A DNA stretch of 64,000 nucleotides from Frankineae bacterium MT45 (lineage in GTDB: Bacteria > Actinomycetota > Actinomycetes > Mycobacteriales > Jatrophihabitantaceae): NCBI GenBank assembly GCA_900100325.1, contig LT629697.1, forward strand, positions 620,001 through 684,000, read 5' to 3'. The notes under the pieces are model-generated. The model had not been told where the DNA came from. It saw nothing but the letters and a program-made list of their open reading frames with translations, and did not search any database. Below are positions 43,298-46,450 of this stretch, piece after piece (within the stretch, counting starts at the first letter, position 1; every line of letters starts with the position of its first letter). The position numbers were made by a program, and so were the translations under genes.

Positions 43298-45535
43298 CTA
43301 GCTGGCCGCCCCCGCCGTCTCCAGGGCCTTCAGCTCCTGCTCGATCTTCGCGTCGTGCTCATCGGCGTCCTTCTTGGCGGCCTTCGGGCTCCAGCGTCCG
43401 ATCATCAGGAAGACGAACGGGATGAAGAGGATCTGAGCGGCGAAGCAGATCCACCACCAGGTACGCCACTGCTTACCGATGTCCTCCTGGGCCTTCTGCA
43501 CCTTCGGACCATTCACCTTCAGGTAGGCCAGGTCGGCCGTCGGCACCTTTCCGAGCGCCACTAGTTGGGCACCGGCGTCCTTCACGGCGGGGCCGGCGGT
43601 CTTGAGCAGGGCCAGCGACGAGACCGGCACCGCACCCAGCGCCTGCAGCTGAGCCGACGCATCCTTCACGACCGGGCCGGCCGTGGTGAGCAGGGCCAGA
43701 TCAGCCTTCGGCACCGCGCTGGCCGCGGCGAGTCGAGCCGCCGCCTCGGCCGGCGGGATCTTCAGCGCCACTGCGATCTCGCCGACGGCGGTGGCCGCCG
43801 CCGGGCCGGTCGGGTTGGCCTGCAGCGCGGCCAGGGTGGCCGGGCTGACCGCTGCCAGCGTCTCGATCTCCTTGGCGTACTTCACCGAGTCGGTCTTGAG
43901 CTGGACGATCTGGGCCGCGGTGACACCCTTGGCCTTGGTGAGGTCGGCCAGGGCCGCCACCTGCGCCGCCGGGTCGTTCGGGGCAACCGTCAATGCGGCC
44001 AGGTTCGCCGGGTCGATCGCGGCCGCGGTGGCCAGTTCATCCTTGTATTTCACCGAATCGGTGAGCACCTGGCCGACCTGGGCCTGGGTGATGCCCTTGC
44101 TCGCCGTGATGTCGGCGATGGCGGCGGCCTGGGTGGCCGGGTCGGTCGGGTTCAGCGCCAGTGCCGTCTGATGGGCCGGCGTGATCAGGGCGGCGGTGGC
44201 CAGTTCGGCCTGGTACTTCGTCGCCAGTTCCTTCACCTTGGTGCCCTGATCGACCAGCGCGTTCGTGCCGCTGACCACGAAGGTGAGGGCGATGAGAACG
44301 ACGGTGACCACGGTGCGCAGCAGCGCGCCCCAGACAGCGAGGCCGGTAGCCGTCGCTGCCGGGTTGTGCTTCTCGACCGTCTCGGTGAAGGCGGCCATCC
44401 AGGCGGTGTAGGCGACGCCGCCACCGGCCGCGATGAAGATGATGATGGTGGCCAGCTCGTAGTAGCTGGTGGTCGGCGGGTTGAGGCCGTGCACGCCCGT
44501 CGTCGCCTTGGTGGCCCAGACGGCGACACCGGCAGCACTGACGACGGCGCCGATGACCATGAACGGCTTCCGCACCCGGAAGCGGTCCGAGAGCGCGCCG
44601 GCGACCACGAGCGCGATCGCGTTGGTAACCCAGTACCAGTTGCCGAGGGCGTTGGCCTGCGCTTCGGAGTAGCCGAAGACCGTGGCCAGGTAGACGACGA
44701 AGAAGCCGACGGCGACGTAGTAGAAGATCAGGAAAATGCTGATCGCGAAGGCCGGGCCGATGATGTCGGCCCTCATCATCTGCCTCCAATGGCCGTGCAG
44801 CGCGGTCTCCGGGTCCAGGCCGGCGGCGCGCGCCTCGATGAGGACACGCTCCCGGTGCGTCACCATCAGCTGGTCGCGTAGCTTCGGGCTGAGCTCCCGC
44901 AGCAGTATGAACGCGATGACGAAGACGATCAGGCCAACCGTGCCGCAGACGTAGAACTGGAACTGCCAGTCCGGGTGCGAGTCGAGCGTGTTGCTGCTGA
45001 TCGCGGTGACGGCGAGGCTTCCCAGTACCGGACCGAGGGTCCAGAACCCCATGGCACTGGCTCGTCCGATCTGCGGGCTGAAGTCGCGAACCAGCGCCGG
45101 CGTCGCGACGAGGACAATGCCCTCGACGATGCTGAGGATCGCGAAGAGGAACATGTAGACACCCTTGCTGCCGGCGTGCGGCAGCCCGACCAGGATGATC
45201 AGACCGGTGATCAACAGGCCGTAGACGACCATGTTGGCCCGGCCCCAGCGATCGGCCAGACCCGCCGCCAGTGAGCCCAGCGCACCTACCGCATTGCCGA
45301 CGATCGAGACGGCTACATAGAACCCGAAGGTCATGTGGAAGTAAGTGATGATCTGCGTGGCGACCGCGCCTTGAATGTAAAGCTCGTAGTAGAGCACTAC
45401 GGTGGCGAGGACGGTAATGGCAAGGTATGTATAGCGACGGGTGTTATTCGGGTAACGACCGAGTTGTCGGTTCCATAAGGTTTCGGTGGCTACCGACTCC
45501 GGCGCTTCACCGGATGAATGCGCAAGCGCGGTCAT
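43298..45535 (-). CDS. MFS permease with large repetitive extracytoplasmic loop before the last helix
   Basis: A 745-residue protein, nearly twice the normal MFS length. Residues 37-425 hold eleven MFS helices (motif A GLADRWGRANMVVYG at 92-106), and the last helix is at about 692-713. In between is an Ala-rich, soluble, helical region (about 426-690). It has three 56-residue repeats starting at K440, K496 and K552 (KYxxELATAA...P..LAAL) and three 28-residue repeats starting at V608, V636 and V664 (VPxxxLALLkTAGPxVKDA). By MFS topology this loop is outside the membrane. The charged tail (KKDADEHDAKIEQELKALE) is cytoplasmic. Substrate unknown. It is divergent from a QsdR-type regulator. Confidence 0.88.
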   Translation of the reverse strand: MTALAHSSGEAPESVATETLWNRQLGRYPNNTRRYTYLAITVLATVVLYYELYIQGAVATQIITYFHMTFGFYVAVSIVGNAVGALGSLAAGLADRWGRANMVVYGLLITGLIILVGLPHAGSKGVYMFLFAILSIVEGIVLVATPALVRDFSPQIGRASAMGFWTLGPVLGSLAVTAISSNTLDSHPDWQFQFYVCGTVGLIVFVIAFILLRELSPKLRDQLMVTHRERVLIEARAAGLDPETALHGHWRQMMRADIIGPAFAISIFLIFYYVAVGFFVVYLATVFGYSEAQANALGNWYWVTNAIALVVAGALSDRFRVRKPFMVIGAVVSAAGVAVWATKATTGVHGLNPPTTSYYELATIIIFIAAGGGVAYTAWMAAFTETVEKHNPAATATGLAVWGALLRTVVTVVLIALTFVVSGTNALVDQGTKVKELATKYQAELATAALITPAHQTALALNPTDPATQAAAIADITASKGITQAQVGQVLTDSVKYKDELATAAAIDPANLAALTVAPNDPAAQVAALADLTKAKGVTAAQIVQLKTDSVKYAKEIETLAAVSPATLAALQANPTGPAAATAVGEIAVALKIPPAEAAARLAAASAVPKADLALLTTAGPVVKDASAQLQALGAVPVSSLALLKTAGPAVKDAGAQLVALGKVPTADLAYLKVNGPKVQKAQEDIGKQWRTWWWICFAAQILFIPFVFLMIGRWSPKAAKKDADEHDAKIEQELKALETAGAAS

Positions 45536-45571: not shown

Positions 45572-45587
45572 GTCTCAGGAATGAGAC
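45572..45587. promoter_or_regulatory. Candidate QsdR/TetR operator
   Basis: GTCTCAGGAATGAGAC is a perfect 6-bp inverted repeat with a 4-bp spacer, midway between the divergent MFS permease (start 45535) and the TetR gene (start 45626). It is well placed to control both. Confidence 0.55.
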
Positions 45588-45625
45588 GATATGGGAAATG
45601 TTGCACGATGGAAAGGATTTCGCCA

Positions 45626-46450
45626 GTGGGGGTGTCGGCCGAGGCTCCGATAGGTCCAGAAGGCCCGATTGGTCAAGCGGGCCCGATCGGTGAGGGAGAC
45701 CCTTTCGGTGAAGGAGGCCAAGCCGCTTCAATATCTGCCCATACCTCGGCCTTGGCAAGCGCAACACCCACATTTGGACACTCGACTAGGTGGGCGGCGA
45801 AACTGCAGGCGGAGTCGGTACGAGCGGCTCAGCGCTGCCCTGACGTCGACCGGGTCCTCCCCGGCGGCGTAGCGCCGCCGTCTGACATTCGCGAGGCCGC
45901 GCTCTCGGCTGCGCTGCGGGACTTCGACGAACTGCGCCGCCTCGACATGGGTGCACTGGCCCAGACGCTCGGGGTATCCCGCTCCACGCTGTACCGCCAG
46001 GCCGGCGACCGTGACAACCTGCTCGGCCAGGCGATCTGGTGGCGCTCCCGGATGAGCTACGCCCTCGTGCTCGACGAGACCTCGGAGATGCTCGGGCTGG
46101 AGCGACTCAACGCGGCGATCGGAGCGGTCGTCCGCCGCTATCAGGGAACCCCGCAGATCCGGCGCTTCATCGATGAGGAGCCGCAGGCCGCGATGCGCAT
46201 CCTCACCGGCCCGACCGGCCATATCCAACGGGGCTTCATCACGGTGACCCGCAATCTTCTAGAGTTGGAGATCGAGAAGGACGACCTGCACTTCAGCATC
46301 CCGCCGGCCACCCTGGCCTACGCGATCGTCCGTCTCATCGAGAGCTTCATGTACTCCGACGTGCTCGCGGTCCGCGAGCCTGACATAGAGGTAGGTATCG
46401 AGGTGGTGCGCAGTCTGCTCGCCGGAGCGCTCACCGCCCGGCAGACCTAG
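45626..46450 (+). CDS. QsdR-type TetR regulator with collagen-like N-terminal segment
   Basis: About 274 residues from the GTG at 45626, which has GAAAGGA 8 nt upstream. The first part contains GPEGPIGQAGPIGEG, a short run of Gly-x-y triplets, then a Ser/Thr-rich linker. The real TetR part starts at about 90: AALSAALRDFDELRRLDMGA, LAQTLGVSRSTLYRQAGDRD, and a C-terminal domain ending IVRLIESFMYSDVLAVREPD that matches the QsdR ligand domain. QsdR was described in Rhodococcus as the repressor of a quorum-quenching lactonase. Here the neighbours are a permease and a helicase, so the role is open. The TAG is followed at once by the helicase GTG. Confidence 0.8.
   Translation: MGVSAEAPIGPEGPIGQAGPIGEGDPFGEGGQAASISAHTSALASATPTFGHSTRWAAKLQAESVRAAQRCPDVDRVLPGGVAPPSDIREAALSAALRDFDELRRLDMGALAQTLGVSRSTLYRQAGDRDNLLGQAIWWRSRMSYALVLDETSEMLGLERLNAAIGAVVRRYQGTPQIRRFIDEEPQAAMRILTGPTGHIQRGFITVTRNLLELEIEKDDLHFSIPPATLAYAIVRLIESFMYSDVLAVREPDIEVGIEVVRSLLAGALTARQT

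Follow-up and report, generated by a model that had tools for sequence, protein, structure and literature searches.

The protein described here joins an ordinary MFS transporter core to a modular helical insert between its last two transmembrane helices, a real and unusual feature, and across its relatives the two arms of this insert tend to lengthen together in steps, with exceptions. It is encoded on the minus strand of the window, by which we mean the whole stretch of 64,000 nucleotides that was analysed, by an open reading frame of 745 codons for amino acids that runs from ATG to stop (Table 1). The architecture, a modular helical insert on an ordinary core, is supported by structure prediction and comparative statistics, and the insert is probably a two-arm rod. 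No published description of a carrier with such a modular insert was found in the open literature searched, a body of text that has preprints and most subscription journals outside it.

The transporter core and its neighbourhood

Membership of the MFS is evident from sequence and from predicted structure alike. The carrier scores 93.1 bits with the Pfam model MFS_1 (E 2.1e-26), for which the gathering score is 33.4. The whole protein was modelled in AF2 from an 80-row alignment (mean pLDDT 87.9, pTM 0.77), and the core of this model has the 12-helix, two-domain fold of the superfamily, superposing on SLC37A4 (9w1r) with a Z of 42.2 and an rmsd of 3.2 Å over 379 aligned residues of a 382-residue chain. 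When helix limits were set by hand, 27 lysine and arginine residues were counted in the predicted inner segments vs one in the five short outer loops, which places the insert after TM11 on the outer side of the membrane, where the first-pass annotation of this DNA had located the repeat region.

By profile, the nearest solved relatives of the core belong to the SLC17-like anion symporters. At the threshold of E 0.001, a sequence profile search found no solved relative of the carrier; the closest structures were sialin (E 0.0018), VGLUT3 (0.02) and DgoT (0.025). Scores with the NCBIfam models for SLC17/ACS carriers lie far below the curated cut-offs (TIGR00893, 44.9 vs 395 bits; TIGR00895, 42.4 vs 418.55 bits). 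Two residues in transmembrane segments, E138 in TM4 and R407 in TM11, are invariant across the 80-row alignment. In the profile alignment E138 falls on a sialin glutamate, so that the acidic TM4 residue of the SLC17/ACS carriers is present here; the aligned glutamate is one that we take to be the proton-coupling residue. From this we infer that the carrier is most likely a proton-coupled organic-anion transporter, and our best guess is a regulated, proton-coupled carrier with organic or aromatic acids as its putative substrate class.

Next to the carrier gene, and transcribed away from it, lies a TetR-type gene that possibly controls it. The Pfam model TetR_N finds no match in the regulator, which shows a weak Xre-like HTH match instead. 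Its reading frame opens with Gly/Pro-rich near-repeats (IGPEGPIGQAGPIGEG), and the true start may be further in. The regulator start overlaps a palindrome, GTCTCA-N4-TGAGAC with GGAA as spacer, which is a possible operator upstream of the carrier; its arms are kept in a second species of the genus (L002), where the spacer differs. With one mismatch allowed, 0.12 palindromes of this kind are expected per window, and one was present in 11 of 100 shuffles.

Gene neighbourhoods were compared across the family in a sample of 51 of 79 loci, reached after removal of near-copies and with one locus lacking a usable gene call. Genes were called by a GC-frame rule that is error-prone (182 near, 188 far). 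The 92 near genes scanned were the first on each side, except at L063, where the first was the carrier itself and the gene one step further was taken. The 92 far control genes were picked by hand from 150 listed, with longer genes favoured and fewer loci represented, and are not a random set. TetR_N domains occur in 12 of 92 adjacent genes and in 3 of 92 of the distant ones (Fisher p 0.028). AMP-binding enzymes (5 of 92) and FMO-like monooxygenases (3 of 92) are also present among the adjacent genes, and both are absent from the 25 control families listed out of 134. These contrasts are soft, the distant genes having been picked by hand. A conserved operon was not found: the largest cluster of neighbouring reading frames covers 20 of 81 loci, and the window is joined with another locus in just two clusters. 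The varied neighbours of the loci examined yielded no partner gene, and the six window neighbours scanned with Pfam included no lipoprotein family.

Table 1. Features of the carrier gene and its regulator, in positions of the window. U and V denote the 56- and 28-residue repeats.
Feature	Position	Strand	Basis
MFS transporter gene, 745 aa	43298..45535	-	Pfam MFS_1 and MFS fold
Transmembrane helices 1-11, residues 31-420	44276..45445	-	AF2 helices; positive-inside count
Stem helix above TM11, residues 422-440	44216..44272	-	AF2 helix 422-440
U1, residues 440-495, 56 aa, four short helices	44051..44218	-	Repeat analysis and AF2
U2, residues 496-551, 56 aa	43883..44050	-	Repeat analysis and AF2; 33/56 identical to U1
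U3, residues 552-607, 56 aa; aligns with the sole U of one-layer relatives	43715..43882	-	Repeat analysis, family alignment
V1, residues 608-635, one 25-aa helix 610-634	43631..43714	-	Repeat analysis and AF2
V2, residues 636-663, one 25-aa helix 638-662	43547..43630	-	Repeat analysis and AF2; 20/28 identical to V1
V3, residues 664-691, helix that runs on into TM12 (666-703)	43463..43546	-	Repeat analysis and AF2
Transmembrane helix 12, residues 692-713	43397..43462	-	Sequence and AF2
Divergent TetR-type regulator, possibly controlling the carrier	45581..46450	+	Pfam TetR_C_36, 3.3e-28
Palindrome GTCTCA-N4-TGAGAC at regulator start, upstream of carrier; possible operator	45572..45587	.	Sequence scan

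The insert and its repeats

The insert occupies residues 421-691, between TM11 and TM12, and the Ala-rich, repeat-bearing part of about 265 residues that the first-pass annotation had recognised there is indeed present. Alanine makes up 26% of residues 426-690, which contain no cysteine and a single tryptophan at the very end. Three units of 56 residues (U, starting at K440, K496 and K552) are followed by three of 28 residues (V, starting at V608, V636 and V664), in exact register and at precisely the starts that had been read from the sequence. This periodicity is beyond chance: in 2000 shuffles of the same residues none equalled that of the whole insert. At a lag of 56, identity within residues 438-607 is 47%, a score matched over all lags by 0 of 2000 shuffles, and at a lag of 28, identity within residues 606-690 is 54%, again with 0 of 2000 shuffles matching the score. 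In both series the third copy is the weaker one, with identities of 33/56 (U1-U2), 18/56 (U1-U3) and 21/56 (U2-U3) for the longer unit, and of 20/28 (V1-V2), 11/28 (V1-V3) and 10/28 (V2-V3) for the shorter.

A frameshift fusion of two genes, or another error of assembly, is excluded by the protein of the second species of the genus (L002), which also has 745 residues and is 89% identical over its full length. Between these two proteins the core keeps 373 of 390 residues and the units keep from 39/56 (U1) to 27/28 (V1), so that the insert evolves faster than the core as far as this one pair of sequences is concerned. Pfam recognises no known domain in the insert, and the sole NCBIfam match, to DNA polymerase III psi over residues 509-552, is below threshold (E 0.4). 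A search of the carrier's own genome at E 10 found no second copy of the insert.

Modelled alone in AF2 from a 55-row alignment (54 of 78 locus inserts together with that of the window), the insert reaches a pLDDT of 94.0 with a pTM of 0.73, a combination that would fit an elongated body. Each U is predicted to form four helices (442-448, 453-461, 466-480 and 484-496 in the first, for example), and the third V is predicted to run on into TM12 as one helix (666-703). A disordered region is excluded by this pLDDT.

Searches for the shape of the insert among solved structures gave no convincing match, which does not show that the fold is new. None of 111 Foldseek matches reached E 0.001 (best E 1.1); the best VIA-align match had a Z of 5.8, in a range common for helical shapes; and the best profile match, at E 0.048, was a designed protein. 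VIA-align paired 203 residues of the insert with SH3BP5 (Z 5.4, rmsd 21.8 Å) and 204 with the signalling domain of a chemoreceptor (Z 4.5, rmsd 14.9 Å). These long hairpins or coiled coils of helices, found alongside other helical proteins, are weak matches and only hint at the shape of the insert. Of the rod that had been proposed for this region, helical structure is thus predicted with high confidence, and these matches and models leave the rod shape itself probable.

Co-variation of the two arms across the family

A pattern scan of GTDB species genomes gave 431 confirmed relatives among 453 matching stretches, and the best 80 of the 431 were retained for analysis. By title, all of these best 80 are actinobacterial with the exception of L105, from a MAG labelled Bacillota; this family member is 55% identical in its best segment, and the contig is possibly mis-binned. 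A protein search of 101 relatives at E 1e-20 found a family member in 20. Within the window's order, at least 33 of 397 genomes carry the family at E 1e-60, with two candidates scored per genome; the phylum-wide alignment search, with about three candidates scored per genome, gave at least 1 of 396, a figure not usable as a distribution.

The comparison covers 108 inserts, that of the window included, on 108 core rows that represent 98 different sequences. L017 and L024 were excluded as duplicates, L121 and L122 were not extracted, and L098, L014, L019 and L020 were dropped as broken, gapped, partial or devoid of insert. L020, which is 32% identical to the carrier, has no insert. In the Streptomyces shenzhenensis relative (L098:10262-11563) the family sequence is lost just past the insert start, through a pseudogene or a sequencing error.

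Insert lengths fall into clusters of 88-102 residues (32 inserts), 171-182 (53), 229-231 (15) and 259-264 (3), with single lengths of 128, 140, 143, 214 and 301 residues outside them. U units are followed by V units, except that 5 of 108 inserts show a V-like match ahead of the last U. The boundary between the N-terminal arm (N-arm) and the C-terminal arm (C-arm) was marked by the last recognised U. Inserts with one U (n=38) have a median N-arm of 67 and a median C-arm of 31.5 residues; with two U (n=65) the medians are 119 and 59, and with three U, in five inserts only, 177 and 87. The 229-residue class has two U and both arms longer in proportion (N-arm 151, C-arm 78). By profile counts at E under 1e-3, U and V are equally numerous in 73 of 108 inserts (36 with one of each, 35 with two and 2 with three). 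Because the outer V copies are divergent, however, the case for co-variation rests on arm length and not on V counts. A misplaced boundary would shift the two arms in opposite directions, and would therefore hide a correlation rather than create one.

The lengths of the two arms are correlated with a Pearson r of 0.78 over the 108 inserts and of 0.69 over 27 distinct architectures. Independent contrasts, calculated on a family tree built from the cores with the insert left out, give an r of 0.78 and a slope of 0.53 C-arm residue per N-arm residue, for which the unit lengths would give 28/56 = 0.5. A sign-flip test reached the observed value in 1 of 20,000 trials, and of the 32 contrasts with a non-zero value for each arm, 25 agree in sign. 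By parsimony on the core tree the number of U changes 10 times, of which the well-supported branches alone force 4 to 6; this count would be too high if L006 and L013 hold a second U that went unrecognised. On a second tree r and slope were unchanged, and the number of U again changed 10 times.

Exceptions to this coupling are L004 (N-arm 66, C-arm 62 residues) and the pair L006 and L013 (66 and 113), in which a second U is absent or unrecognised. When four odd rows (L004, L006, L013 and L081) are left out, r rises to 0.96 with a slope of 0.60; these rows are kept in the main figure. By reading of the sequence, L081, L084 and L101 carry other repeats in their inserts. The first of them, the Trebonia kvetii relative (L081:9959-12004), has repeats of about 10 residues (APYSAQLxTI type) together with one recognised U.

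Possible roles of the insert and comparison with known carriers

We lean, if only slightly, towards a 12-helix MFS carrier, most likely the proton-coupled organic-anion transporter proposed above, in which the last outer loop has been extended into a rigid rod of helices. From TM11 the chain would pass into the stem helix, rise through the four-helix U units and turn, and a return arm of single V helices would continue straight into TM12, the two arms presumably pairing in antiparallel fashion. One U and one V would make up a layer of about 84 residues, and of about 4 nm if successive V helices follow one another in a straight line; at 1.5 Å per helical residue 28 residues measure about 42 Å, so that the three layers of this carrier would give a rod of about 12 nm. 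Any motion of the C-terminal half of the carrier would be shared by the rod, which is predicted to pass into TM12 without a break. Duplicating a U-V pair once in tandem would yield alternating units; with the order UUU-VVV, two events are needed for the arms to grow in step. Arms of matched length are most simply explained if U and V form the two sides of a single rod and have the same distance to span. The 56 residues of U would then be folded into four helices and the 28 of V drawn out into one straight helix, both equally tall.

The joint lengthening of the arms suggests that it makes a difference to the cell how far the rod reaches. The most likely job of the rod would be to reach the cell-wall zone, docking a partner or guiding substrate at a set distance, and a docking or reach device may be proposed by likeness to the role put forward for the Rv1410 extension with LprG. 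A fuller version, which we offer tentatively and with more doubt than belief, is a length-tunable stalk: two non-homologous helical repeats would be gained and lost in matched pairs, in steps of about 4 nm and to about 12 nm here, such that substrate is passed to a partner, or received from one, at a fixed depth in the cell wall.

Other readings account for part of these observations. An allosteric outer gate, in which only the membrane-adjacent layer matters through contact with outer loops of the N-half and further layers are neutral tandem duplications, would agree with the one-U members being common (38 of 108), with the faster change of the insert than of the core between the window protein and L002, and with EL7 of QacA, which lies between the last two helices and whose removal is reported to abolish efflux (PMC10425836). 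We judge it rather unlikely, as neutral duplication gives no reason for joint growth of the arms near 2:1, and the UUU-VVV order requires separate matched duplications and not one. We think it improbable that the insert is a wall anchor or spacer, one that sets the position of the carrier with respect to peptidoglycan and takes no direct part in transport. Its outer location and its regular Ala-rich helical repeats would suit such a role, as would the presence of the family both in genera that presumably have mycolic acids and in genera that presumably do not. Searches of the carrier with Pfam and NCBIfam found no known wall-binding domain, however, and the number of U follows no simple pattern of envelope type, Nocardia having some members with one U and some with two.

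The first-pass annotation had also seen in the lengths of 56 and 28 residues a hint of one ancestral 28-residue unit, so that each U would be a fused V-like pair. The 2:1 ratio is exact in this protein, and 5 of 108 inserts have a V-like match within the stem and first U. Comparisons of half against half and of V against U nevertheless remain at background: identity at a lag of 28 is 15% inside the U block, half-units score from -16 to 4, and the V profile finds no more in residues 426-607 than in shuffles, 124 of 300 of which score as well. The predicted structures differ too, with four short helices in U vs one long helix in V, and we regard common ancestry of the two repeats as very improbable.

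If the reading as a rod of two arms is right, rods of one, two and three U on similar transporter cores make up a natural length experiment. They would also be an uncommon example of how two unlike repeats evolve when the length of each constrains that of the other. The role of outer MFS extensions becomes directly testable by the addition or removal of layers.

Among the closest known systems is that of Rv1410 (P55) and MHAS2168, to which the best Foldseek match of the whole carrier model belongs (8pnl, E 2.9e-8). TM11 and TM12 of MHAS2168 extend by about 20 Å, with 31-38 residues among homologues; truncations of the extension abolish or weaken transport, and passage of triacylglycerides to LprG has been proposed (PMC10576003). 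These proteins are actinobacterial MFS carriers in which, as here, an outer helical extension joins TM11 to TM12 and TM12 is prolonged beyond the membrane, the corresponding helices of our model being 422-440 and 666-703. Unlike the present carrier, with 12 TM and a modular insert of about 265 residues, they have 14 TM, the shorter extension and LprG as partner. The extension of MHAS2168 is not known to contain repeats, whereas the insert here is built of them. The TM6-TM7 linker pair of 14-TM carriers of the Rv1410/P55 type is absent from our model, in which the only helices between TM6 and TM7 (217-237, 242-246 and 249-253) are polar in sequence.

A second parallel is EL7 of QacA, a helical hairpin (441-467) between TM13 and TM14 that is required for efflux and has been proposed to form a gate with EL1 (PMC10425836). 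Like the insert, this hairpin, also found in LfrA and SmvA, is helical and lies between the last two transmembrane helices; unlike it, EL7 has about 27 residues, is directed toward the membrane and belongs to the DHA2 family with 14 TM. Luminal domain 4 of SV2A, a synaptic vesicle protein, is built of pentapeptide repeats. This domain, likewise a large outer domain of regular structure on an MFS protein, is a beta-helix that lies between TM7 and TM8 (PMC11026379), whereas our insert follows TM11 and is helical throughout in the models. The SLC17-like symporters (sialin, VGLUT and DgoT) are the best solved relatives of the core by profile, weak as the likeness is (best E 0.0018), and we know of no such insert in them. 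In view of the helical hairpins at the corresponding place in Rv1410/MHAS2168 and QacA, and of the SV2A beta-helix elsewhere, the first-pass description of the insert as unlike anything in standard MFS proteins was too strong. The insert shares its place and its helical nature with the hairpins of Rv1410 and QacA, and differs from them in being seven to ten times longer, in consisting of two unrelated repeats and in its variable length.
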